Assembly (NCBI GenBank): GCA_034687125.1
Contig: JAQGBZ010000035.1
Location: 62,001 to 126,000 of the forward strand
Reading direction: 5' to 3'
DNA from: Neelides folsomi
Taxonomy: Eukaryota > Arthropoda > Collembola > Neelipleona > Neelidae
DNA length: 64,000 bases
Each line of letters starts with the position of its first letter. Position 1 is the stretch's first letter. The translations under genes were made by a program, and so were the position numbers. This document shows positions 5,373-62,500 of the stretch, piece after piece. The notes under the pieces were generated by a model that worked only from the letters and a program-made list of their open reading frames with translations, had not been told where the DNA came from and ran no database searches.

Positions 5373-8300
5373 ATGGGGTATTTGGCAGTCGAAGCCGGAG
5401 TCCTCATCTTGCTTTTTGCAATTGGGGTCGCCGTCAACACTCCTCTCATCATCATCTACTTCCGTTCGAAACATATCCGATCAACGACAGACAAGTAAGC
5501 TACACGATCACTTTTATTACCATATAATCTACTCGTATAAAGATAATATCTCAAGCTAGTTAATATTTCATATAAATATAACAATTTCCAGGTTTCTGTT
5601 CAACATGGTCGTCGGTGATGTTTTCTCTTTGGCGTTCCTCTTCCCTGCCATTTTCCTCGACTTGGTGGAAAAATATGGAGTGATAGGGTCGACTTTTTGG
5701 TGGCTGTGTGGGGTCAAGGCGGGACTATTATCATCCTTGGCCACCCTATCGGTCTTTGCTGCTTTTGAAATGGCTGTTGAGCGATTTCTAGCTGTTGTCA
5801 CTCCGCTGCATTACCACAAACTTCTAACAAAGCCTTCAGTGGTTGCGGCTTCAACTGCCGGATTCTCAATTTCAATCGGTAAGATTTATTCTCTATATTA
5901 CAACTTTACAACACTTTAGATTCCTGAAATGACTTCTTCATAGCATTAAAAATGTATTATTTGTAGGATGAAGGGCATCCTTCTAAACCTGCAATTAAAA
6001 TCTAAAGTTGCCATTTAATTCCCCTTTTTTCACGAACCTCTAAATTTATTTACTTTTTATATTTCTTAGGCGTTGGAATTGTTGGGAGCCTTTCTCCGTT
6101 GCAGTGTTCTCTGTTTCATAACTGCGGCACTGAAGATATTGTTGATATGTTTTGGTGGGTGATGGTGAGCTTGACGCTCACCTGTCTCACCTTCATAATT
6201 CCTGTCCTCTCCATGGGGATCATTTATTCGAGGATTTGGGTGGAGGCGAAGCGTCAGAAGGCAAAGCTCACCCAACGCTACAAACCCATTTACGCCACTC
6301 ACATGAGCAACATTGGTGAGAATTTTGTTTTGATTGATTGCAAAATCGCAATTTCACATTATGTTGGTGTATAAACTATAAATTTACACATAGTATAGTT
6401 TCAGTGCTTAAACCTTCATTCAAACGTTTGTATTTATTTACTGCATCCTCTTCTGTAATACTTTTAATTGGTTAATTAAAAGGTTTAATTGTACTTTAAA
6501 TAAACCACCTACATGTTGGATATATCTTACGTACCTAAATATATTACACATATTTTATAAGAAAGCTATATTATCTTCTGCTTCATAACAACTCATATCA
6601 AATAGCATAGATTTTGTAATTGCATCATATTATTTAAGTTCAAGAGGAATTTTAATGTATATAGTTGGGTAGTTAAATATGCTTTATTATTTAATTAAAT
6701 AAATAAATAACAATAAATTAAATGAAAATATCAATTATTTAGTATATTACCTAGATCATATAGTATATCTATATATTATATATTTTATATATCTACGTAT
6801 AATAAATATAGGTATATCTATTATTAGTACCTATTTATACCTATAATAATCAATTTATTGATGATTAATATATTGATTATTAAAATAATAATACACATGT
6901 AGGTAATCTATTATAAATATATATAAAATCATATAACAATATATTGAATTTGAATTTATACTAAATGCAAGATTAACGAATTATTTGTTTTGAAATTCAC
7001 ATGTATGCATAAAAGACCAAAATTTCCCATATTTGAAGTCATGGTTTATGGCCCAAGAAAAAGTGATACCATAATATGTGTGCAGTTGTAATCTATGTTA
7101 TGTAGTAGTAGGAGGTAAACTAAATAATTAATAACGTAACTACAGATAGGTTCAATGTGGGATTTGATTGACAATGAGTAGGATTTGCCCAAATATTCCA
7201 TCGGAAAAAAGTTTATATATTTAATATAGTAAGGTTGTTATGTGCATGTACATAAAAAAATCTTACATAGTATTTTATCTACGATGCAAATCGCCATTTA
7301 TCGAATCCTGAATCGTAGTTTGTTTGAAAGTGGAGGAGTGAAGGCCAGGCAGGATCTTATAATATTATTTATAACATTAAATTTAAATAAATAAGGATTA
7401 ATGTTCTATGAAAATATCTTGAACGGGTAATATTGTGGAGCTCATGTTGGCACTGTTTCTTCAATTTATCATTTTTAGTCTTGAGACTTTGACTTTGAGC
7501 AGGCAGGTCATGTCTCAAAATGAGGGAAAGGAGGAAGATTGGGACAGCCCAACTTGAACTTGGCATCCCAACCATTCATTGTCAATTGAAACCACACATG
7601 TCTCCCGTCTTCCGTCTTCCGACATGTCTACCTTAACAAAAACAAAGCGAGAATTGAAAAAATGGGATTTTTTGAGCAAACCACTGAAGTTTGAGGATTT
7701 GTTCTTGGGGCAAAGAAGGTTAGGTTGAGAAGGTTTGAGTTGGCGGTGAAGCTATCTGCTATTTTTACATCCTCAATCTCTTGGCCAGCTTCTCAAATGC
7801 CTCTAGGAATAGGAAATGAAGGAATGAAAATGACTCTTGGCAAAATTAGAGATTATCTCGTAATTAATAGACCAAAATCATTTCATGATAACTCCCATGT
7901 TTTTATAGGATGGTTCTCAACTAGTTTTAGATTTCAATTAATAGTCAAAAATATTCTAATACAGATACATTGTAGACATGCAGTCCTTTTAGCATTTATA
8001 ACTTCCCAGTCCCAGAGTCCGTTTAATTAAAATCTTTGTATATAGGTATAATATTGATCGTAAAAGTATATATTACATTATTATGTATATACATTTATAG
8101 ATTTATACATAATTGTATTGGTATAACCTTATACTTCTAATAGTTACTTAATATACTCCATCATGTCATGTGTATATAATCTGTTGTGCGTATGAGAATT
8201 TTAAGAAACAGGAATGGGAGGTTTTTTCGCGAATATAGGTACTCTATACGTTAGATATACTATAGTATGTACGATATTTATAATGGCATATTATTCATAT

Positions 8301-13435: not shown

Positions 13436-16400
13436 ATGGCTAAATCGGCGAATTTAATTTTAACAAATCATAGCAAGTGTTCGAAATCTCTCGTCGTAGC
13501 AAAAGAATCGGGTAATTTGAACAACCATTTACATATTTAGTCACATCTTGACCAATTCCTCTTTGGATGATAATTGAATTAAATCGAAACAATTTTTTGG
13601 ACTAGATATTTTGTTCAAACCTCTTGCGGATGGAGGTGTCAGCGTATTGGAGATTCAAAAGGAGAAGCTCCGAGTCAAGAAACAGTTCCACATCGACAAT
13701 TTTTCCTTTCTGAAAGAAGATGATGAAAAGGCTCACTTGTCATACCTGCTTACTCTTGATCCTGCCAATTGGAAGGTTCGCCATCCGCCACATGATTATT
13801 AATACTTCATTAAATTCCATTGATCCATAATATAAAATTTTACACCCTTTTCATTTCAAAATTGATATTCCAGGATCAAGATCATTATGCCGTGATTGGG
13901 CTTAAAAAAGCTCGTTATCTTGCAACAGATGAGGATATCAGAAAAGCATGTGAGTTCTGTTAATTGTTCATTTACGATGGTGGGTGAGAGAATCAGACGT
14001 TACAAAGTAGTGCAACAAACTAAAAAAAGGTTTCACTAATTGTGAAGGTGGTTTGAACATAAGAAAGTGTTTAAATGCAATCTCGGTGTTTTTATTAATT
14101 GTAATTATGAGATTCATTCCAATTGAAAGGTTTGAAAGCTTTTCCATCCTCAGTTTCCTCAGCCGAATGAACCTCATTATTTTTGTGATTTGAAGCTTCA
14201 CTTTGTATAAAATCAAGTCATTTTAATTAATCTATAATAATCAATATGCGGTATATGGAACTTCCAATGATAATTTCGGATAAATAATGGATTTAGATTT
14301 CAATCCTTCAATTTAGGGGTTAAAATCTTGTTCGCTTTACAACACTGATTTTCATCACCTTTTTGCTTAATAACTTCTTTCACTTAATAAATAGAATAAC
14401 AACAACATCTATTAAATACAATATGTGAATTATTAGACCGAGCTCAAGTTCTGCGTCATCACCCAGATAAGCGCCAAGCGCAAGGGGAAATCATTAATCC
14501 CGATGGTGACTACTTTGCCTGCATTGTCAAAGCTTATGAAATTCTTAGTGTTCCTCTCAAGAGAAAAGCTTTCGATTCAATTGATCCATATTACGAGGAC
14601 TGGACTCCTTCAAAAGTCATTGCTGATGCCGACGATTTCTTCACAGTGAGTTCTCATTCATTTAATTTCTTATTGATCATGTTTTTCTTAATCTGATTAA
14701 CCCAATGAATTCATTTTTTTTAGATATTCGGAACATGGTTTTGTATGTATTCAAAGTTTTCAAACATCCAACCTGTTCCAATTCTCGGTAACATGAACTC
14801 AACCCGTGAGGCTGTAGAAGAGTTTTACGAGTTTTGGTATAGTTTCGATTCCTGGAGGGAATATTCTTACCTTGACGAAGAGGACAAAGACAAAGGACAA
14901 TAGTAAGATTGTTAAAATTAACTAAAAATCAATTATTAATTAATGAATCAATTGTTAATGAATCGATTGCCAGTGTAAATTGATTTAATAAATAAATATA
15001 ATATTAGTCGAGAAGAACGACGGTGGATTGAGAAGCAAAATAAGCTTGCACGAGCGAAGAGGAAGAAGGAAGATAGTCTCAAGACAAGAAAAATTGTAGA
15101 CATTGCCTACAACTATGATCCACGCATTAAAATGTACATGGAATTTGATAAGCAAGAAAAGCTGGCAAAAAAGCAAGAGAGGCAAAATGCCGTTCGCATG
15201 AAGCACATGGAGGAACAGAAAGTAATTTTAATTTTTCTTCTGCAAGATTTAGTCTACTTATTTTACTTGCTGAGTAGGTTTAATATTAAAGTTAAATCAT
15301 TTGTTTATTCAACCTTTCAGATTCTCATTGAAACAGCTGAAAAAGAACAACGAGAGAAGGCTGAGAAAGAAGCGATCGAGAAGGAGCAAGAACTCGCAAT
15401 TAAACGTGAGCGAGAAGCCATGAGAAAATCTTTGAGGAAAGAGAGGAAGATTTTCCGAACCTTTTGCAAGGATCGAAATTATTTCACCGAAAAGGACAGT
15501 GATATTGTAAGAAATATGACTCTTGTGGAAGACCTCTGTGACAAACTTGCATTGCTTGAGTAAGTCCTTAATACAATTATTGTTTATTGACAATTTAACA
15601 AAGTTTACATAGATTGTAATTCCCATCAATATACTCCCCAACGTCAGCCGGGTTTGCGCGCTCCCTTTTATCACCTTACCCGTTCATTTCTAATTAATGC
15701 AATGATTCCTTTTCAACTTTTTAATTTATATGGCGAAAGGAAAAGCAACATCACAAGAGATAGTTAATTTAATTAGAATTAAGTTTTTAGAAAGAGCTCA
15801 TTAAAGTTAAAGGAGATAGTACGAAATCTTAATATTTTTCTTGGTTTTATAAACTTAATAGTAATTTGTAGTTTAAGTATTATTTGATTTAATATAATAC
15901 ATTTTGTTAATTTCAAATGATACTCTTTTTAATCCAAACTAAATAAAAAATAAAATATTTCTATGTAAAGACCCAATTCTTGATGAAAAAGAAGGAAAGT
16001 TGTCAAAACCAGGGAACGCGCAAACCCGGTTGACGTTGGGGAGTAAGGTGATGATTTAACTTTGAGGTTGAAAAATTGGGATGTATAAAATTTGTTAAAA
16101 TTTAGGCTTGAGAGCTTGAATAAAGAGATGCTCGCGACGAGGTCTGAAGATGCAGCAAAGGAATTGTTCTTTACGAAAACTGGTCTTTCCCTTCCGAAAC
16201 AAGATGAAAAGCCGAAGATGAACGGAGAAGGAGAGAAACTGTGGAGTCCGGAAGAACAAAAGCAGTTTGAAGCGGCTCTTAAAACTTATTCAAAGTCAGA
16301 CCCTCAACGCTGGGTTCGTGTGGCAGAGGCTGTTCCAGGGCGTACGAAAAAAGAATGCAGAGATCGTTTCCGAGTAATTCAATAATTATTTAATTAATCA

Positions 16401-18135: not shown

Positions 18136-20026
18136 ATGGAAACAAGGCGAATGACAAGAAAGATGATCCAAGAAATTGAGCAGGCCGAGGCCCTGTTGAA
18201 CATTCCACCAGTTGTTGAATCTCAAGAGCCTACACCCATGGAAATTGACGTCGTTGAACCTCAAGTTCCTCAAGATGCGGTTAGAGACCAAACGAACGTA
18301 GGTCAAGTTCCAAATGAAGGTCAACCTGATGAAACCCCGGCTGATCCCGCGACGACTCCAGGTACGGAAGTGAAAGCGGATGGAGCGGAGGCTGGAACGG
18401 TAGTTGATCCAAATGCAACTCCACCAGAAAAACCTGTTGCGGAAGAAGATCCCCGGATGAAAGAATTCCTCGAAAGAGGATTTGGCGACCTTCATAGGAT
18501 GATTCTTCAGGGAATTATGAGAGCTGGATTCCTCGACGCCAAAGGCGTCAAAAAATTGTTCTCAGAATCCTCCAAACTTTTGAAAAGTAAATTTATACAT
18601 ATACTTTATTTTTAAATGAATTATAAATCCATTACAAATTTAAATGACTGGATTTGATTTTGAATTAAAATAAATTTAAGTTACCGATGACACGACCGTG
18701 TCAATGCAATTTGCTCAAAGAGTCGTGAAGGAAATTAATGAAGAATTGAAAAGATTTGAGTTGGCCATTCGAAGTGCTTCCTGCGAACTCACTGGGAAAA
18801 AATATTACATTTTCCTCATCCTCGTTGAGAAGGATATCATGAGGCGAGTGAAAATCATTTTTCAATCTCTTACTAACAAAATATATAATTTGCATTTTAT
18901 TCTAACAAGTAAATGCAAATAAATGCTCAAGATTATTATTATTATTAATTTTCTATTTATTATAGATTCCAATCTTTCTTCAGCAATTTTGAACTTGATA
19001 TGTTTAAAATGTCAATGGATCGAATTTTGAGGAAATACGCCAACTTTGCCATTCCCTATACTGAATGTATTAATTTGACAAAAAAAGTCGGTCCGAACCA
19101 CACGCTGCACCAAGGAGAAGAATTTGTAGAGAAAATGCTCAGCTTGCTTTATTTTGCAAAATACATGATTACAGTAAGTCGTATTATTATCCTATCAATC
19201 CAGCAAATATTTATAACATTTTAATACATAATACATATTTAATAATATTATTACATATTTATAAAATTAGTTTTTTTACCATTTATTTAAAAATTTCAAT
19301 TTGACAATCTCCATTAAAATTGTATATTTGTTTTAGAAAGTGGAATTTCAGATTTCCCTTGGAATTCGTGCTATACGAGAATTTGAGCCGATTCTGAAGG
19401 AACTGTACAAAGATATGATCGGAAAGTGCGAACATTGCAATCAATGCCTTCTTCACGGGTATCATTGCAAAAACTGTGGATATCTAATTCACAAGTCATG
19501 CTATGTTCGAGTTGTTCAAACAACAAAGATGTGTCTCAACACCAATTGCAAAGTGACATGGTCAAGAGAGAGGGAAATGATGAGGCGAACGAGACCTGAA
19601 AATAATCCCGACTCCTACTTGGAAGATCAAGAGGACCCTGTTTCAACAGCCGCTGCAGAAAAGTTTAATCAGCTCAAAATCAACGAAGATGGCGAAGAAG
19701 ACGGTGATGAAGAAGAGAACGGCGAGGAAGATGAGGACGGCGAGGAAGCAGAAGAAGGAGAGGAGGGGGAAGGAGAAGGACACGAAGAAGATGCAAAAGA
19801 AGACGCAAAAGAAGATGAAGGTCAGGAAGAAGAGGAAAAGGAAGAAGAGGAAGAAGAAATAGTTCAAACACGAAGAGGTCGTGGACAAGGAAGCCGTGGA
19901 ATCAGAGGAGCACGATCTATTCGAGGATCCTCGCGAGGGAGACGGGGTTCCGGGAGACGTGGACGGAGCAGGGTGGCAGACCAGCAAATCCAATCTTATG
20001 AATCTTATGAAGAATACGACGAGTGA
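18136..20026 (+). CDS. NSMCE1: NSMCE1, RING subunit of the SMC5/6 complex, with extended N- and C-termini
   Basis: Exons are 18136-18586, 18681-18843, 18966-19173 and 19337-20026 (503 residues). Intron 2 must use a GC donor (GAG/GCGAGT at 18844) to keep frame; every GT alternative breaks it. Residues about 105-345 follow the Nse1 winged-helix region; the RING-like domain begins with CEHCNQCLLHGYHC and ends with CLNTNC, fitting the C4HC3 pattern. Nse1 with Nse3 and Nse4 makes the kleisin subcomplex of SMC5/6 in the nucleus, for DNA repair and replication. Unusual here are an approximately 100-residue Pro/Glu-rich N-terminal extension and a long tail: a Glu/Asp/Gly-rich block (about 390-445) then an Arg-Gly-rich block with RGRGQGSRGIRG. 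Human NSMCE1 is about 266 residues. The identification rests on the RING and neighbouring helices. Confidence 0.85.
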
Positions 20027-20550
20027 AATGAAACTTAACATGTTCGAAATATAGTTTTTTTAAAGATCAATTAACATTTTTATTTCTTGTATTTAAGCTA
20101 TTCTACCTTGCCAAGCTACCAATTGTAATACTTTTCTACTTAAGATATTATTATTTTTCAAATGAAATTAAATAAAAATAAAATATTTAAAAATTTCATC
20201 TTTATTAAATTAAAATATTGAGATAATTCACAAATGTACCTTTACAATAGATAAATTATATTAATCAATCAATCAACTTTTATTCGCAAAAATTAGATGT
20301 CATAAAATTATAATTTTTGACGATTTTACAAAGGTCAAAATGCTCATAACAATGATCTTCCACAAAGTATATATTACAATATTAACTTAAAATCTCAATC
20401 ATCAATTATACCTTAGCCTAGGATTATAAATAATAATGTACATAGTACTCGGTAATTCAAAAATATCTGTAATAGTTAAAACGCATGAGCAATAATCCAA
20501 GTCAGTCAAGTCAAAATCTCTCAATAATTTAATATAATATTTTTAAATTA
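20027..20550. other. Convergent 3' spacer between NSMCE1 and the fusion gene
   Basis: About 520 bp, AT-rich, no gene seen. An AATAAAAATAAAATA cluster near 20171-20185 could serve as poly(A) signal for NSMCE1. It must hold both 3' UTRs. Confidence 0.5.
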
Positions 20551-23500
20551 CTAGTCGTAATCCTCATTTCTTTCTCCAGATAATTTTCTCGTCCTTGATT
20601 CAATTCCTGTTTTGTCAATGGCGTAAAGAGGGTACATAGCACTTCGAAGCGCACCGTAAAGATTTGGGAACAGGAGTTCCTGAGCAGCTAACAATTGCTT
20701 GACCCGATGGCGCTCTTTAGGCTCTTTAAAACACGCTGGGCAGTTATCCGGAATGACTGGAAGGCCGCGTGATTCTGCAAATTCCCTCAATTTTTCTTCA
20801 CGCAAGTAGACGAATGGTCTTATTACTCGAAGATCTTTCTCACTATTAAAAAATATAAATTAATATTTAATCAATAAATTTATTAAGATTGAAAAATTGA
20901 GAAACTTACTCAACAGTGTAAGATGCCTTAATTGTTCTCAGAAATCCATTATGAAAGATTGACATAATGAAGCTCTCGGCAAGATCGTCTAAATGTTGGC
21001 CAAAGGCAAGGACATTGTATTTATTTTCTCGAGCCGTTGCATATAAAACACCTCGTTTCATTCGGCTGCAGTAACTGCAGATGGACGTCACTTTCATTTT
21101 TAATGCTTCGTCCATGATGTTTTGACTCTTATAAAAATATTGGACTCCCAAAGAGGCCAAATAAGGAATTAATGGTTTCGGATCGTAAGAACTGCTTTGG
21201 GGATCAACAGTGACAGCTCCAATTTCAAAATGGATTCCTTGACTTTTTAATACAAATTGAGTTTGTCTCAAAGTGTGAAGGAGCGACAATGAATCTTTCC
21301 CTCCAGACAAGCAGACCAATACTCGGTCACCATCATCTATCATAGAAAACTCCTTCAATGCCTAAAATACAAACATCAAACAATAATCAAATATATAAAT
21401 TGAAAATTGAAAAAATTAATATTCATTTATTAATATTGATTTAATTGTAGTAAATACCCGCATTGTGGATTTGAAGATGGAATTTGGTGGTGAATGCCAT
21501 CTTGCCGTTGAACTCTTTGCTGGTACAATCATTGTTTTTCTTTCGCAAATTCCTTGTTGGGGTGTTTTGTAATCATTCACACTGTCCTTTTCAACTTGCC
21601 CAGGAACTTCAATATTTGACCCATAGCTTGAGATCGAGTCACCCTCAGATGACAATGCATTCCAATGGCTATTATCATCTTCGAGGGAATTGTCTACTTT
21701 TACTGGCGATAAGTTACAATTTGTCTCAAAAAATTTGTCCAATGACATTGGCTCGGTTGCAATTTTTTTAATTATTCGAGAAACCTTTTCAGCTATTTCA
21801 GCTTCAGAGTGAACAGGACTTTCCGAACGTCCGAGAGCAGTAGAATCCTCAGTGTTTCTCAATGAAATATATTCATTCTTCTGTAGTTCACCGCTCCCAT
21901 TAAATGGAACGTTTTCCATAAAATTTCCATTAAATTCACATGTATCGTAATTTTGTTCAAGTTTCTCATAATTTTCCATTTCCCTATGCGGTTGAAATGG
22001 AAAGGGGAAATCAGTCAAAGCATTCATTTCTTTAATAATCGTATCATTTATAGCAAGATATCTGCTATAATCGACACATGAATATTGTTTGACAGAGAAT
22101 ATTTTCTCTGAGCGGATGTAATTTGTTGAGCCATGTTTAAGGAATCGACTCGCTTCAGAAGGCAGGATGAACCAACGAAGAAATGAAGTCGACTGTTCAA
22201 AAAGAACTCTTTGGTCTGGATAAGAAATTCTTCGGCACAGCTGGAAATTACAAATAATGATTAATATTATATTACTTATTAATAATTTATCTAATTATGA
22301 CCTAGTAAATAAATTGGGAATTCTACAAACATAAAGTACAATAAAATGTAGATCACATTAAAATAACAATCACCTCTTGAGATTTGGCAAATGCATCTTT
22401 TGCCTTTGCCATGCATTCTGTCAATTTCAATCCTTTAGGTGCATTCTTATTGTTAGACAAATCGGACAATCCCTGCCCGTCAAAAACAGCATTGCTGAGC
22501 CATTTACGTTCCACCTATAAATGATGAAATCATTAAATATTGTTAAATTGGCAAACATTGTTACTCAAAAAGTATTAAAATTGCCAAATAAAATAATAAC
22601 AAATACGTAGAATTAAACTCACAATTTCAGCACTATGTTGGAATTCTCCCTTTTCCAAATCGTATTTATAAAGCGGAAGGAGTTTCCAGCCCTCCTGGGC
22701 AATGAGTCTAATCGCCTCAATTATAAAATCAACTTCCTCATCGGAAGAATAATAGGCGAAAGATAGCCTTGTAAATCCAGGTCTATATATCTCATATTGA
22801 GAACCTTCCTGATAGCGTCGAAGATGTTTTCGATTCAAACGACTAAAAAATATAATTACTAAAAACAACAAGTGTTAAACAAATGCTTTTGACGCATTTT
22901 TAATCAAATTTCCATAAAATCATAAAAGCAATTCTATTATAAATAACTATTATTAAATATAGTGTGGATTGGTTTACCAATCTTCGAGAAGAAGTTCTTC
23001 ATATTTGTTGGCTATTTCGCTGTTGATGTTGAGCAATTTATAAGCGTAAGGTGCTGCACAAGCACAACCTCCCCTTGCTTGAATGCCGAATAAATCGTTG
23101 AGAAGAGCAACCACAAAGTTGTAGTGAAGGAAGTATCCCTTTGAAAATATATTAAGTAATAAATTAAAGAACAAAATATGAGTTGAGCCCATAATAAATA
23201 TTTTTATTACCGAGTCAGGATGTTCGATGAGAAAAGATAAAATGGGCAACCGAGGATGTGACAAATTGCCCAAAATTTTTAACTCGGGAATTTGCTTCAA
23301 CTCCTTAATTGCTCGACTAAATTAAGTTTTCAACATTAAACTTGAGCTAAGAGAAATATTAGTCAATAAAATATAAATAATATAAACAATACTCACTTAA
23401 TGTATTTTTGCTCTCTCGCTACAATGGCCGGAGCTGTGAGAGTTTCTTTCAGTCTGAACACTTGACCCAATCTAATGGCTTCAATAATAGCAGGGGTTCC

Positions 23501-24937
23501 GCCTTCTTCTCTATATTCGGCATTCTTTATTAATCAAAAGAACAATTGAATATTACTAACTCGATTAAAAGATGATTAAAATGAAAAGTTGATGGTTAAA
23601 ACATTCCTTATTACGTACCTTCAAATACCGATGATGGTCATCAGTGACAAAGAAGACGGATCCACCGCCGCCACCGTTGGCAAGCTCATTAGTAAACAAA
23701 TCATCTTTAATGATGAGGACACCTGGAATGAATATTGTATTAAATGATTTGTTCCTAATAGTAATTAAATAGCAATTAATTATGTGTAAACCTGGGGTTT
23801 GAGGACCGCCGAGGAATTTGTGCCCCGAGAAAAAAATTGCATCTTTTCGGGCTAATTCTCCATGCACAGGGTCAATGGGATTCATCACTATTTCGACGTG
23901 TGGTGCAGCAGCCGAATAATCCCAAACAGCAAGTCCCCCATATTTGTGCATCAATACTGTCATCTCAACATCTTTGGCGACTACTCCAGTAATGTTCGAA
24001 GCCACAGAAAAGGATCCGATAAGCCTTCGATTAGGAAATACCAAAGCCGCACTTCGAAGTCGATCTTCTAATTGATTTAAGTCAATTAAGCCATCTGGAG
24101 CTTCAGGAATTGCAATGACCTAATGAATAACATAAAATGGATGAGTATGGATGAGTATATTGTTAAGTAAATATTATTTAAATAAATGTCATTTAAATAA
24201 AAGTTGTTTTTTACCTCACATCCAGCATCCCTCCAAGGGAGAATATTCGAATGATGTTCGTATGGGCTAGTGAACACGATCGGCAATTTCTTTACTCTGG
24301 ATGTTAGAGCATGGACTAATTTGTGTATAGCCCCTGTGGCTCCAGAGCCACACAGAATTACAGCATCGTGTTCTGAGGCCTTGACTGCATTTCGAATAAT
24401 CCCCCTGGCTTCATGCCTAACAAAAATTACAAAATAAATATGTAATTTGATAGAGCAAAATGAATATGAATTTCACCTGAAGTTAGTCGTAATCGAAGAT
24501 GTGAACGTCGAGGTCGTATGGGTGTTCCCATAGTAAGGCAAAACGTTCTTTTGAATAAAATCTTCGATACATCGAAGAGATTCCCCGGTTGCAGTGTGGT
24601 CACAGTAGATAACTAGATAAGAAATATGGAAAGCTTTAAATATAAATAATTTTGGTATTGTATTAGATAAACCTGATAAACGTGTATTAAAACTATGAAT
24701 CATAATTATATTTTAACAATTAGACAACGAAATCAGAGAAAAAATAATTTAATTATTACCTTTTCGTGGTCCAAAAGGTCCTTCATGTACTGCTCCACTT
24801 ATAAACAAATTCCGGCGAATCATGTCCACGAGTTCTTTAATTCCTTCCTCTTTTGACAAAATCCTCCGAAAAGGTGGTCTTGATGATTCAGATGCTTCGG
24901 ATCTCCCGTTAAGAGTAGCGTCGTTAGCCGACTTCAT
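20551..24937 (-). CDS. Fusion: class V aminotransferase (cysteine-desulfurase type) + TtcA-like tRNA thiolation domain
   Basis: Thirteen exons (minus, 5' to 3'): 24760-24937, 24477-24612, 24215-24416, 23792-24119, 23619-23722, 23397-23524, 23211-23316, 22978-23138, 22623-22842, 22374-22514, 21458-22240, 20910-21361, 20551-20842. All twelve junctions keep phase, giving 1076 residues. N-terminal half: PLP fold with GNTHTTS (88-94), GSGATGA, WDYSAAAPH, SGHKFLGGPQTPG with the Schiff-base Lys near 273, and GGCACAAPY with Cys near 419 and 421, placed like the active-site Cys of SufS-type desulfurases. Residues about 525-825 are a linker with no known domain. C-terminal part: SGGKDS PP-loop (848-853), CSYCSRMKRG (Cys 924, 927) and NCPACF (1014-1017), matching TtcA, an iron-sulfur enzyme that puts sulfur on C32 of bacterial tRNA. 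It is inferred to pass sulfur from cysteine to tRNA. No targeting peptide is evident. Confidence 0.9.
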
Positions 24938-25562
24938 CCTAACCTCTTTGTGAAGGCTTACTCTAATACGGAAAATGAACCTTTGGAAAATCTTGTCAAT
25001 TATCGCAGACTGAAATAAATAAAATATTTTTCTTAGTTGATGTTGAATCGTGCTTAATTTGTTTAGACGAATAAAACAAAGGCATCTCTAAAGCCGTAAA
25101 TAATGAAATCTTCAAACCCGGCATCTCATTATTATTTGATCATTATGCTTATAAGTTTTATATTAATGAACAATCAAAGCTTATTACTATTATAGCTCTT
25201 ATATAGTTAATATAGTACATAAAATTACAAGTATTTAATAAAAATGACAATTTTGATTCCATCAAAAACTTACAAAACTTACCTAAAAATTAATTTATGA
25301 ATGGGAAATGTTGATGATTTCGAGACTCTCGAGCGCGGTTGAAGCGTCGGTAGTCTCGATAGGGAAATTTGACCCAACACGCCCAGCTCAACTCCAAGAA
25401 GCCAACAACGAGAACAAGACGGCGAAGGAATAATGGCTGCAGACGGGACGGCAGGCACGGTACGGTCACGAAACCAGCAACCACGATACGATGACGAAAC
25501 CACGAGGTTAGCGAATCCCAATGAAAAAACCTCCACTGCTCGTTTATCCAATTAGAGAACAC
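24938..25562 (-). other. Non-coding 5' exons and intron of the fusion gene
   Basis: On the minus strand an acceptor (TTTCAG) precedes about 25009 and a donor (TTTAG/GTAAGT) follows about 25283. A first exon from roughly 25560 to 25283 spliced to 25009 is therefore likely. The joined frame meets stops before the ATG at 24937, so these exons are untranslated. The first exon is GC-richer than its surroundings and contains short open frames that I regard as chance or uORFs. Confidence 0.55.
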
Positions 25563-25632
25563 GCAGATTTTAATCCTACTCCAAATTATCCCAATTAACC
25601 CATATTAACAAAATATTATTAAAAGACGAAAA

Positions 25633-29895: not shown

Positions 29896-32800
29896 TTAAA
29901 GATATTGCCATTCTGTAGTGACAATTGAAGTTGTTTTTTCATTTGAAAGTCCAATTTCTTCAGGGATTGAATGGAGGATCCAATACCGTCGAAAGACTTC
30001 ATATTTCCCACTACTCAGACTCATTGGATTCCCTCGCCGAAAGCCCTCATCAGTTTCACCATATTCATCCAAATAGGGCGTGGGGTAAAACCAACCTAAA
30101 AACATAATTATGTACAATGTGAGTTAAAAGAAATGAAACTCTCATTTATCTCCACAGAATAAACATTCTTACCTTTGTTAAGTCCGCTTATACAAAACAA
30201 TTTGCATTCTCGAATCCTCAGAAAAATTCCAATTCCTCCACCACAATAATAAGAATGATGAGCACAAGCTCCAACACGCAGTGGAGTCACCGACGTTTCC
30301 AACTTCTTTTGACAACAGTAGCTCTATAAAAAACAATAAAATGGATTGAATTACAATTACAATTGTAGAAATACTTTTTCTTGACTATTTCAATACTATA
30401 AAAAAATATGAATGAGATGTTTCTTGGAAATTAACCTGTGAACAGAGGATTGTTCCGCAAATGAGACAAATCGACGGGGATCTTGAGTCATGAGAGAAAT
30501 GAGCTTCCCCATTTTGGCACGAAAAGAGGGAGACAGAATTGATGAGTTCGGAGTAGTCTTGGGGGAGAGAGACGAGTCGGGCGAGTTTACGGGGATAACT
30601 TGGAGAGATCGAATCAGGAATTAGCTTTAAATCAACTCGCTTATCCCCGCTCTCTTGGACGAGTGAGTTGTAAAGAGAATTTTGTTCTAAAATGCTACGA
30701 GTCCTTGGGTGATTGATCCATCTAAAATATTATTTATTATTAATAATTACATTAAGTAAATAAATAAAAACGTACTTGAATATTATCGTCTTGATTCTCG
30801 GTTCTTTAAATAGTTCGTTCCTTGATTTGGGAAGTCCCAAATAAGTGGTGAGGTCTTCAAATGAGCAGTTGACTTCGGTCAAACTGGCCGGTGGTGAAAT
30901 CATCGTTGCATGCTCGAAGAATTTGGCACAACACCGTAAAAAAGGAATACTAAAATAAGAAAATTCCCACATTGTACGTAATTTCATTAATATGTTTTGA
31001 TTTCATGATTAGCTCGTAACATTAGATCATTAAGATTATAACTTACGCAGCATCACATGCAGACACCCAAACTTTATCATAATCTTCAAAATTTGAAGGG
31101 AGTTGGGCGGCCTTTCGAATCATTTTAATAATTTCATCATTACAGGGATCAGACTCATCGCGCATTCCGCTTTCATCTTCCTCAACTTCCATCAAATTCT
31201 CTTCAGCTCCTTGAAACGAATTGACAAGTAAAATCTGGACAATGTGCACCGTAAATATGAGCTCGAGGATGAAATAATCCTAAAAAATTATAGTTTTTAA
31301 ATAAAGATAAAAAAGAATGTGAATTTTAAGTATTTTTTAAAAAAAAATTTTGGTCGGCATTTACCCCCACTTTTCCCGTAGGCATTGCAGGAAAAAATAA
31401 GTGATTATGTCCCAGGACATTCTTTCCTCCTTCATCGAAACAAAAAAGGAAGGGATAAGAAAAGCAGAGAGATACGAGAAGTGAAAACGAGTCGGCCTCA
31501 AGAATACACGGGTAGTCAGGTGGACTCTCCATCAGAAATTTAACCAATTTGATCCCAGCACACCTCAGCAACTGTTTGATAGATACAGTAATAAGTAAAT
31601 ATATATATATATAATTACATAATTTATATATATAAATTATGTAATAGAACATGGTATTTTAGAATAATCTTGTTTAGTCATACATTAAAATCTTGAAAAG
31701 CATATGTAGAAGTGGCAGCAATTCTCAAAAGATATTTATGACAAAAGGATTGTCGACGAGAAACTTCTTCTCCAAAAAATGGAATTTGTTGGTCACGATG
31801 GTATGCTTCAGAAGCCATGATGGTATAACTCAACGTTTGCCAAAGGATCAAAGGTGGGCGAAAATCACCTTCGTTTGGTTGCGTATCAAGCCCAATCTAT
31901 AAAATAATATCAGTTATAATTAGTATATTGGCGAAACAGCGAAACTACTAACAATAAGTAATAAGTGTTTTTAACATATTCATCCTGTATTTCCAATTGT
32001 CAAAAGGTTTCTACCGTAAAAACGAGCTGTAAGAACGAGACAGCGAGATCAAGAAATCCTTGGGCAAAATCCGCCTTGTAAATTGCTTCATCCACCGTAG
32101 ATCGAAAACTAGCAATGTCCTCAGGTTTCCATCCATCAGCAACACCAATATCCTCAATTGAAATCATAGACAATTGCTTGAGAAGATAACTTCGCTCCTT
32201 TAACCATTGCTTTGAATCTTCATCCATAGGCATCGTATATACGTCGTCAGTCTATGAACGAACAAAAATTATTTATTTAATTAGATAGAATGATTTGTTT
32301 AATATGATTTGTTTGTAGAAGTATTTGATTTTTGACTTTATTTATATATATTTATTTAGATTATATTTAAATAGTATGGTGGAATATATTACTGATTTAT
32401 CTATACAGCTTTGAAGACCACGAATCCATAAATCATAGGAACATTCCTTGGTTTCTTCGGAGTCAGGGGCAGGAGTGAAAAGGGCGACAATTGGCAAACC
32501 AAGAGGAATCACCGTATTGCTAATGCATTGGCACAGTGGGCACAAATACTCATGCTTGTCAATATCGAAGCTCAGAGGTTGACGAAGTCTAAAAGAGTTC
32601 AAAGTCAGGATCGTAAGGAATTTAATTTGTTTTATTAAAATAACCTGTATGGGCGTCGACGTTCTTTGAGCGTCATATGTTCATAATACTCTGACCAACA
32701 ATTAATGTGCATGACATGACCGCAACATGTGATCACGGGTCCTCCAAGCAATTCAGGAGAAATGATCAGTGGATCGCGTTCTTGAATGTGCCCCTTTCCT

Positions 32801-35800
32801 TCATCTTTCCCAGCCTTAAATGATAAAAAGTGAATGGTTAGTTAAAAGTTTTTGTTTAAAATCAAAATCAAAGTCGGCATTTTTACTTCTTTAAGAAGCT
32901 TTTCTCTGAAAGAACAAAGAACGGTGGATCGCTGAATGAAAGCTGCCATCACGAAAGGCTTTGAGCAAACATTCACATCCCCTTCTTCTTGGCATAAGAT
33001 GCAAATATGCCTAACAATAAATTATGGTAACAACATGTAGATAAAGAATAATAATTAAATGAATTTTCAATATATATTAATATTTTTTATAATAATTATT
33101 TATAATAATGTAAAATGTATTTGATTCAGATTTAAATTTCACCTTTCTGTTACAAATTGAGGAATCGATTGGTTGAGACCAAGGGCGACTAGTTTCGTAT
33201 CTTCTTGCATTGATAGGAATCCACACTGAGGAGGAGAACTCGTTGTTTGGTCCATAGAGGAATCTAAATGACAAGAAGAATTTAATATTGGGAATTTTAA
33301 ATTAAAAACATTCAAACCATCTTCAAATAAGTCAGCATTGACAGTCATAAAGTTCTTCTGTGCTTCGTTCATTTTTGCCAATAATTTAGCTCGACTTTCA
33401 GCAGCTCTTTTGGCATTTTTCCTCCTTTCCTCCTACACATTAAAAAGTTTATTTTGTTAATAAACGTAATTTAAATCTTTAATTACAATATGAAATTGTC
33501 TTAATATATGAAAAGTTACCTCTTGTTTCCCTTCTACATTTGGTAAAGTGGCAATATTCTCGTTTGGGTTAATGATATAATGATATTTGCTGAGGATCCA
33601 TTTGATCAGCTCGTGATGTGATGAAATCGAAGATTCTCCCAAAAGTTCTTCAATCAAATTTGGAATATTAGCTTTTGATAATGGTTCTGTGAAGTTGAAT
33701 TTTAAATTTTCATCTTTCTCTTTTCCTCGAATTTCTTCGTTGAGTCCATGGGAGATTAAATGAAGAACTTTCCGCAATTGCATATCAGAAGAACTCCGTG
33801 TTTTCCCCAATGATCTATATCAATCATTATTAGAATTCTTTAGGAATTACTATGAATTCTATCAATAATGAATGATTGTCAATAAATATAATCAACAAAA
33901 GCAAGAATATTCCAAGTTTACCTTTTTAGCACATTAGTAATGATTTGAATCATCGTATCAGAATTTAAAATGTTCACAATAGGAGCAAATGAATCGCAGA
34001 ATGCTGGCAATGTTGGTGGGGGAAACATTTGCGCTTCTTTGGCTTCTTTCTTTCGAAGTCTCTGGGCTTCTTCAGCTTTCGATTGCTCTTCCCGCGAATA
34101 GTGGAAATGAAAACTATCAAATTCCGCATACAATTCTACCCATAATAAAAGTAATGGAAATGAAAATAATTACAATAATGTGATAATAATCCTTTGATGG
34201 ATGTCAAAGTTGAAAAGTTTTCTATGAAAACGAACCTGGTTTAAGCTCAAAAGTTCCACCAGACGTCGGGTTTCTCTTGAAAGTAGCCACATCTTCGATG
34301 ACAAGTTCAAGCCCCGTTTCGTTGTTTACATTCTCAACAAGCATCTTGTTAAGAGCAGAGTGAGTCATTGAAGAAATGCACAGAATTTGAATCACTTCCT
34401 TTTTAATGCACTCAGCCTTAGTCACCTTCAATCAAACCAAAAATAAATCAATCTTTTAAACCCACTGATACAACAAATGCACATTAATAATACAAATGGT
34501 TATTCAAACAATAAAATTACTTTTCCAACTCCAGGGACGTAACGTGCTGCAAATAGAGTGACGACGAGGTTTAAAAATTCCTCAGCTATTATCAATACTG
34601 ATTTCATCGATTCGTCCTCAGGTGTATTCGACAACTACAATAAATATATTTTTCCCATTATGCCACATTATTCAACAAAATATAACCAATGTTGAGAAAA
34701 TATCATCATGATTTGGATTTAATAGAAATTGTATGTAAATATAGCACGGTACATTATTTAGTAAAAAATATTACCCGAGGCCTATCATCATAAGAAGAAT
34801 CAGCCCAGTCTACCAAATTGTATCGATTGAGACAATGAATGAGAAATTCATCTGGATTGATCACAGCTGCTCCGATTTGAAGAGCCAAAATATCCTTGTC
34901 GAGCATTTCACTACGGCATCGAACATTTTGATAAAAATATAGTTGATTGAGAATAGCATAACCATTTCGTTTCCACATTCCACCAGCAACCTATGTAATT
35001 ATAAAAATAATTTTATGATAATAATGTACATAAACCCCGGTCAACAAACTTCAAACATGAGTAAATCGTTAAATAAATTAGAAGAATTATTAAATAACAT
35101 TAATAAGAAATCAATTGATTGTACTTGAGCTGATAGAACTTGAGTTCTGAGAGATGGTTCAATAAGAATCTCCGGACTAAGAACTCCATTGAACTCAGTG
35201 GATGAAAATGAGAGGCCAAATGATTCTAAATTCACATGCAACGCCGCCCAGAATCTTGTCAGGGGCAAATGGACGGAGACAGGTTGAGAAGCAATGTCAT
35301 ATACGAATGACATGACGGAATGAGACCCAACCTCTTTCTTCACTGTTCTCATCTTATATTGTGAATACAATCCCGACAGTTTTAAAATCACTTGTCTGTT
35401 GGTAAAAAATTTGTTTTATTAATTTTTCTTATTTTAAATCTGTATACCTACTCTATGTATTTACATATTAGCTTAAAATAATGAGGACATGGGATTACGG
35501 AAATAAAGAAGTGAAAATCTAAAATCTACTAGCTTCTAATAAATTATTATTCATAATTTCATTTTTTTAAAATATCGTGCTTACCTGTAGATCTTTGTAC
35601 AAAGTTCTTTGTCCGTTGTGCACCATTCGGCCAGTTGGGAAATGACGGGAGCCAATTTAATGTGGAGATTAAACGCAGTTTCCCATTCAGGTTCATATTC
35701 CATGTGCTGCCCAACTTGACGAACAACAGCATCCATTTCCTATTACAATTCAATCATAAATATGAGTAAAATATATCTTTACAACTATTAATATAATATA

Positions 35801-37783
35801 TTTAAAAGATTTAAAAGGGAGTAATATGAAATATGTAAATGTACCTGAATGAAGCTCATGAGTTCGAGCAGAACAAGGGTGGCATGAAATAAGTTTTTCC
35901 TTAAAGTCATGTTCCATTCAGCTGGCGGTGAAGTAAGAAGATATTTTAAATCTAACATTGCGTAATTGATCCTTTTAAAATTGCTATTCGTGGTTCCCTT
36001 TTCAAATTGTAATTTACGATCTGGAAATGTGAAATTGGAATTTTAACAAAACTCTAAATTATTGTAAATAGAATTGCAATGGTAATCATAATAATTAGTT
36101 ATTAAATTAATTCTTCCTTGCCTGTATTTAGCTTCCTCTCGCATTCCCAAAGAAGAGTTCGGACAATGGTGTAGAAAATGTCATAATGTTCAATTAAATA
36201 ATGAGCAATTGTGGGAACCGTGTAGATTTGAACAGAGAGAGATGTGATCGAAAAAGAATGTTCGTGATCATCGTCAATAAATTCTTTCATTAATTGAACG
36301 TAGTGTTTTGAAAATGCCTTTAAAAATAAACAATTACATTAATTTCCCAATAACTATCTAATATTAGACACATAAGAAATAAATGTTACAATTGCAAAGT
36401 CCTTCTTCGTGTCATAGTCTTTCAGCATTCCAGTTATGAAAAGCCGATGCCACGCGGCTCGAGTTGCCTTCCAAAGGGAACTGTCCGCCATTAAAACGCC
36501 TTCGAGAATGGTCGGACCATCGTTTCTTTCGCGTAAAATAGTATCTCTGAAAACAGATCTAAGGCCTGTGGATTGACCCAAGAGATATTCGAGCCATCCG
36601 AGCAATTTGGTAGCAAAAGTCTCATGAGCAATGACATGACTTTGCATCACAACGACCCTCAACGGCTTTGCCCCGTTCCTTGACGTTTGTTTCTCAATGA
36701 TCACCTTGACTGTATGACAAGCTGAGAAATCAGAGCAATTGACAATGCTCCTCCCTTCCCGATCAATTATAGTTGCGAATTCCACAGCGTCTCTCTCTGT
36801 ACACTCCACTGCCTTTTGAAGGGTTTGGATGACGAGGTCAAAGGTGTGGGTTTCATCGTTGTAAAGTACTGTGCCGTACACTTCCCCAGATGGTATATCC
36901 AGCAAAGTGATTTCGGGATCAAGGAGTTTCCACTCAGTTGGCACTTGGTGCTTCGTGTGCCCTGTTAGAAATATATAGCAATAGTCAAGGACGATTTCAA
37001 AGATAAATTCGGCCCTTTTTGCGAGGTCTTTTGGGAAATAGGACAACTTTTCGTCTTGTTCAGACTTGGGAAGATGCGAATCGCAATAAATGTGAGCTTT
37101 CCAAGCTTCTGGATCACCGCAATCACAGTAGCCACCTCCAGAAGAAGTAGATATTTTATATCTGCATTAAAAAATTGAGCACATTATAAATATTTATGAA
37201 CAATTAAACTTACAGGTAAGTATGGAATTAAAACTGAAGAAATTATAATTATTTAAAACAGATTTATATTATTATTTATAATTTAAAAACTCACTTATGA
37301 GAGTTATGCTTCGACTGCTTGAAACACGCGACGCAAAGGACGCATGTTGGATCTAAAGCACAGTCTCTACATGTGTAAGTCGGTTCCCCAGACTTAAATA
37401 CTTTTCCGCAAATCGATGGCGGAGTTTCCATTTGTGATAATTTCTGTAAATTGTAAATATAATGAATAAAGAATGCTATATAATTAATTAAATAAAATCG
37501 AATTGATTCTGTGTCTCTGTACCTTAAAGAATTCCTCGGGTTCCTCTTTGTTTGCAAGGAAGAGGTCAAGGAGGCCGAAGAGACGTTGGTTCGCCAATTC
37601 GTCATTGTAAGTAATTTGGAGACAATTGACATGTCGTTCAGGGCTGTAGATTTTAGGGACGTATGTCCGCCACGTCTCTTTGAGGTTAATTGATTCAAGC
37701 TCTCCTCGTTCGAAGGCCTCGAGCCAATGCGTGACAATTTCGTAAGGGTCTCTGTGGTAAATCGAGACGTATGCATTGCTCAT
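29896..37783 (-). CDS. Ubr1: UBR1/UBR2-type N-recognin E3 ubiquitin ligase
   Basis: Twenty-four coding exons (minus): 37523-37783, 37295-37443, 36372-37161, 36122-36317, 35845-36020, 35585-35739, 35125-35395, 34775-34990, 34521-34634, 34236-34425, 33922-34135, 33520-33814, 33143-33432, 32887-33010, 32645-32814, 32393-32588, 32015-32251, 31684-31896, 31365-31571, 31047-31279, 30776-30949, 30436-30721, 30173-30323, 29896-30095. All phases close; 1835 residues. The UBR box (about 98-167) has [13 protein letters not shown] and [10 protein letters not shown]; the ClpS-like N-domain follows. The RING (about 1109-1230) shows [19 protein letters not shown] and CPLCQC. The C-terminal domain has [13 protein letters not shown] and [15 protein letters not shown], and the protein ends in WQYL, close to WQHL of human UBR1/2. 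It recognises N-degrons and works with a Rad6-type E2 in the cytosol. Intron 4 uses a GC donor. An acceptor at 37806 shows an upstream untranslated exon. Confidence 0.97.
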
Positions 37784-59584: not shown

Positions 59585-62500
59585 AAGAGACCGAGCTTTA
59601 AGCGGATCTAACATTTACTCATATTCACAACAAGAAATTCCCTAGTTAAGTAAGTTAATTCCAATTTAAAATTGTACATTTTAGTTGACAGCTTTTTAGA
59701 AGATTACTTTTTTGAAGCTTACAAATTCTTTGTCTATTTAATTTTCATCCGCAAGCTTCCTTAAAGCTGCGACAATTCAAAATTTACATTTCCTCCATCT
59801 GAGATACTTTATTGAACTTGATTCTTGATTCTATATTCTTACTTTTATCCTAAATACTTCAACTTTACCCTTAACTGAGGACTAAATTCTAATATTCCCC
59901 ATAGATTTAACTGTTCACATAGTTTGTTGACTAACGATAAATATAAAGTTACGAACTGTGACAATAAACCTATTTTCTAACAACTATTATATTGGATTTT
60001 GGGCTCATTTTTTACTTTTGAATTTAGTTCTTAAACTCTTTATTCGCTTCACACATTTATTAATATTAAAATTGGAAATGTTTAATTAATTTTAGTCTAC
60101 GGTTCATTCATTTTTTGCAAAGTGACATTTTAATTAGAAATTTTAGACATTTGAAAATATTCTCAAATCTGTTTTTGTTTTTAAAATAGCACATTTTAAT
60201 TTCACTTGTACTTTTATATAAATTTCAAAATATTAAAAATATTTTTAACTATTTAAATGTTGCTTCAACATAAATATTCAATTTCACATTCGCTAGGTAT
60301 GAAATATTTAATTTCATCTTTTACCCCAACTTGTTAAAATGTAAAAGTCAATTAATTTGATAAAGCTTTTCGAAACGGACGTTTAAAATATGCACATCTG
60401 CACATTTTCTATTAAGCACGAGGTTCTTCATTAGTTAACAACGGAGCTTTAATGGTATTTGTAGTTTGTACATAATTAATCTACATATATGTATGCGAGT
60501 TCTCATGTTGGGACTCACTCACCTTCACTCTCTCACCTCCTACATTTCCTCTCGGGAAGTCTTCGAGACAAGGACGATTCCTCTGCTCCAAATACCGACA
60601 GTCTAAATACTATTTTACAAACTGTGAGTTGAAACATTCTCTAATTCTTTACTTTTATTTATATTAGCAAAATATATAATATAGAACCATTGGCAGATAT
60701 TTTACAAATGAAATTTAAGAATACTGAACGTCTTTTTTAAACACTATTACCAATTTACTCAATATACAATTTACTCAATTGGTATTATATTACTTGTCTA
60801 GTGGACATATAAATAATATTCATTGGTTCATTTTGAACGCTGAAGGTAAAAGTGTTTATTATTGAATAAGAGGAATGCTCGATGAATATGGATCAATCGT
60901 GTAGAAGGCTAAATGATCGTAATATGGATTTCACTGAAATCAGAATAATTCATTAAATACTGATACTACATGTCCGCAGAATAACCAATTTCTATTGCCG
61001 TATTCCATATTAGTAATCTTTTTTTCATACCACCTGAGAATCTTTTTTATTTTTATATATTTACATATTAAATGGTTTTACACGTGTATACGTGAAAAAT
61101 CCATTTTAATTTAGTTCATTATTAACCATTTATTATATTTACAACTATATTTATCTTCATAAATAATAATTTACTTGCATATAAGCATAACTACTAAAGA
61201 AAATCAGATTTACTATGATATATAATATAGAAATGAATCAAATGAACGGTTTAATTTCTAATTTTTGTATATCCCTACTTTATCTATTTAACTCTCAATT
61301 TATTCTTGTACATAATAAGGAGATTTTGAGTGGCAGAGCAAAGGTGTTTTAATTCACTTTTGCCTGGAAATGAGTCAGATTACGTCAAAGGCATTTTCTT
61401 CCAGACGCTATGAGAAAACCAGGATTTGTTTCTAGACAATGTTTTAATATTCATATTCATGTCTCGACCTCTTATGCATCATTTTTTTATTATGCATTCA
61501 TGTGATGTGTTTAAAGTATATGTAATAGTCGTCTGCTCCAATAAACTCCTTGGCCTTCCCCATTCATCTTTAAACGAGAGATTACATGTAGTTAATGTTC
61601 AATTTTATTTAAATGTAGGTTATATTTATGTATATTCTGACCCAAGGGAGAGGCATGCAAATTTGTTTTTTTTTCGATATACGAGTAAATTGGCAAGTTT
61701 GATAATATAATATCGTTGTGATATTATAATTCATTTTATAGAAATATATTAATAAAAGGTATTCGATGTGTCAAAAGACTAGAGCGGAAGTTAGATAATG
61801 GATATATCGTATCCCTGTTGTGATATAAACTCCAAGGCGGCATGAATTTTAGTTCATCATATATTGAATATATCTACAACGCAAATTATACAAATGGTAG
61901 TTAAATGTTAAATATTTCCATTTATGCGTATATACCTAAGCTAGTACTCAAAAGTACATTATGTTTAAATAATATAAATTCCAGCTTGGTAAATAATCTA
62001 ATAATATTCGGTATGGGTATGTTTATTAAATAAGAAGGCTTTTCTCCAACCTTCCCGGCACGCGAAATTCTCTTCTTGAGCAAAAAGGGAGAGAAATTAT
62101 CGTCTACAGGGTTTTATCTCGTCACTCATAGTCGGACTTTATGGTTTAATTGTATTCCGGGTTTTGATTCCGTTACCTCCCTTCAAATTGCATCAAATTA
62201 CAGCTTCATTAAATTTTCCTTTTCAATGCAGAGCCACTAATGGATGGCCTTTGCTCAAGCGTCGACCTAAACCAATTTGATCCCAAACGAGGAGACTTCA
62301 TGTTTGCGGACCAACTTAATTAACTTAATGAATTCAATTACAAAGCTAAAGTCCATTAATTCATTAAATTTAATTTTCTCTTTACCTACACGTCCATTGT
62401 ATTAATATTACATTTAGGGAAGGTTCGCCAGCAAGCCAATTGTATTTTTATTATTGCATGCGATTAGAATAGACATTTCAATTTAACTTGCCACTCTCCT

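Follow-up and report, generated by a model that had tools for sequence, protein, structure and literature searches.

A predicted springtail gene joining a SufS-like enzyme to a TtcA-like PP-loop enzyme in one coding frame

Structure of the gene

A stretch of 64,000 nucleotides (nt) from the genome of the springtail Neelides folsomi (positions 62,001 to 126,000 of contig JAQGBZ010000035.1, our contig C35; hereinafter, the window) was analysed, and a gene of unusual composition was found on its minus strand between positions 24937 and 20551. The predicted product consists of an N-terminal half related to the cysteine desulfurase SufS and a C-terminal half related to TtcA, the bacterial enzyme that makes 2-thiocytidine at position 32 of tRNA (s2C32). 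The contig belongs to an assembly of 75.1 Mb in 840 contigs.

Independent splicing of the coding region (20551..24937) reproduced the coordinates of the initial annotation of this DNA, namely 13 exons that join into a single frame of 3231 nt, or 1076 codons, with the sole stop at its end. Exons 1–5 occupy positions 24937-24760, 24612-24477, 24416-24215, 24119-23792 and 23722-23619, exons 6–10 positions 23524-23397, 23316-23211, 23138-22978, 22842-22623 and 22514-22374, and exons 11–13 positions 22240-21458, 21361-20910 and 20842-20551, all on the minus strand. The 12 introns, with lengths of 60–147 bases, all have GT-AG borders and consistent splice phases, and both halves of the gene are interrupted by them. 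The AT content is 77–88% in the introns and 59% in the coding sequence. Reading through the introns introduces an in-frame stop in 9 of the 12 cases and a frame shift in the case of intron 3; introns 4 and 7 contain no stop and have lengths that are multiples of three, so retention of either is compatible with the sequence. The Pfam search found both kinds of domains that had earlier been read from motifs, Aminotran_5 (residues 61–486, E 5.8e-42) and ATP_bind_3, a family of the PP-loop type (residues 843–1013, E 7.8e-14).

The TtcA-like half

The C-terminal half (residues 814–1060; 20602..21505, minus strand, exons 11–13) is a predicted TtcA-like PP-loop ATPase. It contains the PP-loop SGGKDS (residues 848–853; 21290..21307) and two Cys-X-X-Cys motifs on the same strand. 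The first of them, C924-S-Y-C927 (21068..21079), comprises predicted ligands of a [4Fe-4S] cluster, and the second, C1014-P-A-C1017 (20731..20742), includes the predicted third ligand. The first motif is as in TtcA, and the TtcA of P. aeruginosa has the same layout, with C115-x-x-C118 and C203-x-x-C206 (PMC6082896).

When the C-terminal half was ranked against NCBIfam models, TtcA came first (E 1.8e-53, residues 821–1049), with TtuA (5.6e-15) and NcsA/CTU1 (3e-5) far less similar. The initial annotation had called this half a TtcA thiolase; TtcA is indeed the nearest family, but the score of 181.8 bits lies under the equivalog cut-off of 272 (NF007972), and the protein belongs rather to a sister subfamily, whose bacterial members are described below.

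Among 299 sampled genomes of Pseudomonadota, 115 contained a match to the C-terminal half at E 1e-10 or better, and two of these matches stood out with identities of 57% and 46%, the remainder showing 30–38%. The 16S ribosomal RNA of the genome with the 57% match is nearest to that of Niveibacterium (92.6%) and next to those of Burkholderia and its kin, and this genome was therefore taken as betaproteobacterial. A survey of 150 genomes sampled from its order (the order sample of G254) at E 1e-20 or better gave exactly one match in 144 genomes, and these matches fell into 30 animal-like proteins (50–58% identity) and 114 proteins at 30–40%, with an E-value gap of 1e-68 versus 1e-40 between the types. 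The 114 proteins were called canonical by score, and the two tested (L124, L125) clear the TtcA cut-off. Not a single genome carries both types, and about 23 co-occurrences would be expected under independence, although these counts ignore kinship among the genomes and the mutual exclusion may stem from few events. Such exclusion would be expected of proteins with the same job, and it looks as if one type replaces the other in that order.

The TtcA cut-off itself separates the two types, since all six lower-identity proteins of canonical type used as controls passed it with 422–472 bits (472 for L124 and 443 for L125) and all nine tested members of the animal-like bacterial subfamily failed it with 197–238 bits. 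The subfamily retains SGGKDS and both Cys-X-X-Cys motifs. A tree of 42 rows was built from 15 of the 30 animal-like loci, the 46%-identity locus L118, 24 other TtcA-type matches, the animal protein and the CTU1 protein of the same genome. The animal C-terminal half grouped with the bacterial TtcA-like subfamily in a clade of 17 of the 42 rows with 100/100 support, apart from canonical TtcA; its placement inside this clade is unsure, as long branches meet there and the bootstrap is not fully settled. The betaproteobacterial members (L117, L131-L144) share with the animal protein 50–58% identity (L118, 46%), the NCPAC form of the second motif and the clade, and differ from it in being stand-alone proteins of about 250–280 residues in which no fused N-terminal half was found. 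Canonical TtcA of the E. coli and P. aeruginosa type also has the PP-loop LSGGKDS and two Cys-X-X-Cys motifs and aligns over the whole domain with mostly 30–40% identity, but its second motif is CNLC instead of NCPAC, and the animal protein differs further in its fused desulfurase-like half, in its animal host and in its score under the cut-off. Thus, by sequence the C-terminal half is a member of a TtcA-like sister subfamily and not canonical TtcA.

Other identities were considered as well. CTU1, which animals normally use, was rejected on scores, on the tree and on the presence of a separate CTU1 gene elsewhere in the same genome: this protein, although also of the PP-loop tRNA thiolase superfamily, is only 25% identical to the C-terminal half and lies far outside its clade, so the PP-loop part is placed nearer to TtcA and outside CTU1. 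TtuA, TilS and LarE were rejected on scores. This CTU1 is the sole other match to the C-terminal half in the genome, and no second copy was found in the 75.1-Mb assembly, where only the best candidates were scored.

The SufS-like half

The N-terminal half (residues 58–597; 22154..24766, minus strand) is predicted to be a class-V enzyme dependent on pyridoxal 5'-phosphate (PLP), similar to SufS and carrying an LRWFxLP extension. It was compared with a bacterial set of 84 rows, comprising the best 80 of at least 582 relatives and four plasmid loci (L009-L011, L013-L093). Identity to the stand-alone plasmid enzymes of Rhodococcus is 44% over 91% of the length, and to enzymes from many bacterial phyla it reaches 46% among the best 80 of those at least 582 relatives. 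Six residues, H160, D239, K273, C419, C421 and R473, are invariant in all 84 bacterial rows and retained in the animal. The predicted PLP lysine K273 lies in the motif SGHK (codon 23817..23819), and the active-site loop C419-A-C421 is encoded at 23058..23066; in alignments with solved cysteine desulfurases, K273 falls on the lysine that binds PLP, C421 on the cysteine that carries the persulfide and R473 on the arginine that contacts the substrate, these being the roles of the respective SufS residues.

Several comparisons point to a cysteine desulfurase. SufS is the top NCBIfam family (E 1.1e-38). A profile of 16 bacterial relatives matched 43 PDB sequences, nearly all of which are named cysteine desulfurase or selenocysteine lyase, and the structure that AlphaFold2 predicted for one bacterial relative (mean predicted local distance difference test, pLDDT, 82.2) had SufS of B. 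subtilis as its top match, with a template modelling (TM) score of 0.61 by query length and 0.84 by target length. The description of this half in the initial annotation as a cysteine-desulfurase-type enzyme holds as regards the SufS/CsdA type and its catalytic residues, but the curated cut-offs are missed by far (133.2 versus 475.1 bits for SufS and 66.6 versus 493.6 for CsdA, with IscS also far below). The fold, the PLP lysine, the active cysteine and the arginine are common to SufS/CsdA and the animal protein; what distinguishes the latter, besides the scores, is the CxC loop and the residue A242, which stands near the PLP aspartate in place of a glutamine, presumably Q203 of SufS. Since this replacement, found also in 82 of the 84 bacterial relatives, touches the active site, the latter differs from that of SufS. 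Cysteine desulfurase is the best reading of the N-terminal half, whose sequence places it in a distinct bacterial family with members of about 500–590 residues, apart from textbook SufS and CsdA.

This family of class-V PLP enzymes is widespread in bacteria, with the CxC active-site loop in 84 of 84 rows and the LRWF tail in 80 of 84. Its members, such as WP_265385135.1 and WP_283983934.1, share with the animal protein the motif GGCxCAxPY, the usual LRWF tail and full-length identity of 40–46% that includes the C-terminal extension, and differ in being stand-alone. They also lack an insert of 16 residues (449–464; exons 8–9, 23058-22842 region), which is present in the animal and in none of the 84 bacterial rows. 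A more distant relative of the N-terminal half, with 25% identity, was met on a 306-kb viral contig (L094) in a single scan of viral contigs.

Of the 133 columns in which conservation among the 84 bacterial rows reaches 97% or more, 29 hold another residue in the animal N-terminal half, and this could be taken as a sign that the gene is decaying or its product inactive. A frame of 1076 codons free of stops and frameshifts, in which the catalytic residues of both halves are retained, speaks to the contrary, and we regard decay as highly improbable.

One gene rather than two

An argument for a single gene is provided by exon 11 (residues 569–829; 21458..22240, minus strand), which runs from the end of the N-terminal half through the linker into the TtcA-like half. 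Near its 5' end lies the motif LRWFILP (residues 589–595; 22160..22180), a hallmark of the C-terminus in the bacterial family mentioned above. It is followed by a linker of about 215 residues (598–813; 21506..22153), which contains no Pfam domain and is an open frame throughout. Within the 636 nt tested, the other two sense frames have 10 and 28 stops, and none of 20,000 random linkers matched in order-1 composition was open. The last 12 residues of the exon (21458..21493), SPPNSIFKSTMR, resemble the N-terminus of bacterial TtcA-like proteins and agree with the segment just before the corresponding position of 15 stand-alone proteins of this kind; the score of this match was reached by none of the exon's 249 other windows and by 5 of 100,000 shuffles.

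An error of annotation in which two neighbouring genes of the same strand were joined could find support in an AATAAA at 21431, inside intron 11. This intron, however, is just 96 bases long, and the sequence of both families is already present in exon 11 upstream of it. Moreover, the open frame of the C-terminal half begins at the acceptor, and its first methionine falls within the conserved N-terminal stretch. As exon 11 bears sequence of both families, the linker is open and intron 11 is short, two separate genes are very unlikely.

The genome around the gene is that of an animal. The cuticle domain PF00379, mainly an arthropod domain, has 39 matches across the genome, and together with ordinary eukaryote genes in the window this supports an arthropod nuclear setting. 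Nematode cuticle collagen gave no match in the genome, although the same search gave none in any control. Thus, the earlier claim of a single gene in an animal stands on the shared exon, the open linker and the nuclear context.

Flanking sequences and neighbouring genes

A portion of the 5' untranslated region is predicted at 24938..25009 (minus strand), after an acceptor with its AG ending at 25010, on consensus sites only. A strong donor occurs upstream, at 25282 of the same strand, which suggests that 25282 and 25010 delimit the intron following a candidate non-coding first exon of the gene. If this intron is removed and the transcript begins downstream of the closest upstream exonic ATG, at 25603, the ATG at 24937 would be the first. 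The 3' untranslated region, predicted from the motif only, covers 20279..20550 and extends to an AATAAA beginning at 20284. No clear mitochondrial presequence was seen by eye, no predictor having been run and a start in an upstream first exon being possible; the fusion protein is probably cytosolic.

The convergent neighbour on the plus strand (19337-20023) shows a match to a C1-type zinc finger and, after it, a long tail rich in acidic residues and RG, and we assume a likeness to NSE1. The plus strand of the window also carries a piece of a rhodopsin-family receptor (5560-5916) and a piece of a zuotin/DNAJC2-type protein (14979-15560), and on the minus strand, at 30388-37779, a UBR-type N-recognin is represented by exons with zf-UBR, ClpS and PRT6_C domains. 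Scans of the window for tRNA genes and Rfam families gave no match.

Proposed mechanism and its alternatives

The single frame, the domain identities and the conserved catalytic residues are established by sequence; from them we infer expression, activity, a sulfur relay, the tRNA target, the location and the origin of the protein. In our opinion, the best explanation of the whole, to which we give a probability of about 55%, is an arthropod protein of two enzymes, in which a desulfurase would pass sulfur to a TtcA-like thiolase that likely acts on C32. According to this scheme, K273 would bind PLP, and C421, perhaps with C419, would take over sulfur from L-cysteine to form a persulfide. The linker, if flexible, may aid the passage of sulfur to the C-terminal half, where a [4Fe-4S] cluster would be held by C924, C927 and one of C1014 and C1017. 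In an ATP-dependent reaction of this half, sulfur would then take the place of the oxygen at position 2 of a tRNA base, C32 being the most likely target. In bacteria, TtcA of E. coli requires both IscS and an Fe-S cluster; the details of its mechanism are described as unsettled (PMC5372739). A natural desulfurase-rhodanese fusion from Pseudorhodoferax, reported as bifunctional, has in common with the animal protein a desulfurase joined to a downstream sulfur acceptor and is thus a precedent for joining sulfur donor and acceptor; it differs in being bacterial and in having a rhodanese, not a tRNA thiolase, as the acceptor (PMC8931425).

A number of observations weigh against a relay directed to C32. 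Besides the scores under the curated cut-offs and the alanine at position 242, they concern the fold, the taxonomic distribution of the modification and the absence of linkage between the halves in bacteria. A model of the bacterial relative L134 of the C-terminal half (mean pLDDT 84.4) has the Fe-S thiolases TtuA and NcsA as its top fold matches, but TilS models fit it nearly as well as TtuA, so that the reaction cannot be read from the fold. The modification s2C32 has been reported from no organisms other than bacteria and archaea (PMC6082896). A TtcA gene adjoins the N-half gene in 0 of the 84 bacterial loci, many of which end at contig edges, and no N-half gene was found near the two best C-half loci, within 14.0 and 10.5 kb. 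In the order survey, a relative of the N-terminal half (E 1e-40) occurs in 1 of the 30 genomes with the animal-like subfamily versus 3 of the 114 with the canonical type, and in the single genome having both, they lie on different contigs. Finally, no sulfur theme emerged from 73 same-strand neighbours of the bacterial N-half genes, in which no family was found in more than three members (best 25 of 86 families); these were scanned from 75 same-strand genes among 157 neighbours defined by a simple open reading frame rule.

The fusion may be genuine and its thiolase directed to another tRNA base or another RNA. The clade of the C-terminal half is separated from canonical TtcA by a long branch (2.73) and scores under the cut-off, and the group of TtcA, TtuA and NcsA, to which the fold matches also lead, acts on bases 32, 54 and 34 (PMC5372739). 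On the other hand, TtcA is by far the top curated model, and none of the 144 genomes with a hit combines the bacterial subfamily with the canonical kind, the pattern expected of proteins that do one job. We consider a target other than C32 unlikely.

Another possibility is a scheme without an internal relay, in which the N-terminal half would serve cysteine breakdown or a general supply of sulfur or Fe-S clusters and the C-terminal half would be supplied with sulfur by NFS1, in the way that IscS supplies TtcA. Such a scheme agrees with the lack of a link between the N-half family and TtcA in bacteria and with two plasmids, where the neighbours are a TauE sulfite exporter and a hydrolase of the metallo-beta-lactamase (MBL) fold in one case and an L-2-amino-thiazoline-4-carboxylic acid hydrolase in the other. 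These plasmid neighbours are anecdotes that hint at cysteine or sulfur catabolism; the broader survey of neighbours is without such a theme, and an enzyme of a sulfur-releasing type is joined here to one of a sulfur-using type in one chain. The scheme without a relay appears rather improbable, and the relay from desulfurase to thiolase is preferred.

Origin

As the halves resemble stand-alone enzymes of different bacterial groups and are unlinked in bacteria, they were most likely gained from bacteria by gene transfer and fused in a eukaryote. A bacterial fusion as the source of the animal gene was sought and rejected, none being found in the 84 N-half loci, the two C-half loci and the 150 genomes of the order survey. 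The search for TtcA-type matches (E 1e-6) covered 35 genomes bearing an N-half relative, out of the 80 fetched, and gave matches in 15; some of these matches lie within long open frames of up to 842 amino acids, and the 18 loci inspected were without an N-terminal half. The more specific proposal that s2C32 is formed in the animal's cytosolic tRNA by a self-sufficient enzyme of one chain, in which sulfur goes directly from a dedicated cysteine desulfurase to a TtcA-like thiolase, the halves coming from different bacteria and being fused in a eukaryote, is a tentative one, and we hold it at somewhat less than an even chance.

Conclusions

The gene considered here joins, as far as sequence comparison can tell, a SufS-like enzyme to a TtcA-like enzyme, and it is not filed as TtcA or SufS proper because the curated cut-offs of both were tested and missed. 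In the open-licence literature searched, judged by titles and the openings of abstracts, no description of a desulfurase-TtcA fusion or of TtcA in animals was found, and a paper on lateral gene transfer into mites makes no mention of thiocytidine or sulfur in its accessible part (PMC6275457).

If the protein is active, a thiolation of the anticodon loop known from prokaryotes would be present in an animal. An active protein would also provide a compact system for studying how an Fe-S thiolase receives sulfur from a desulfurase, the mechanism of this transfer being called unclear in the case of TtcA (PMC5372739).

The 2-thiouridine at position 34 of tRNA (s2U34) is made via the NFS1-MOCS3-URM1 route, which the one-chain enzyme, if its proposed role is true, would bypass. 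The gene also draws attention to a bacterial TtcA-like subfamily with the NCPAC motif, which apparently replaces TtcA.

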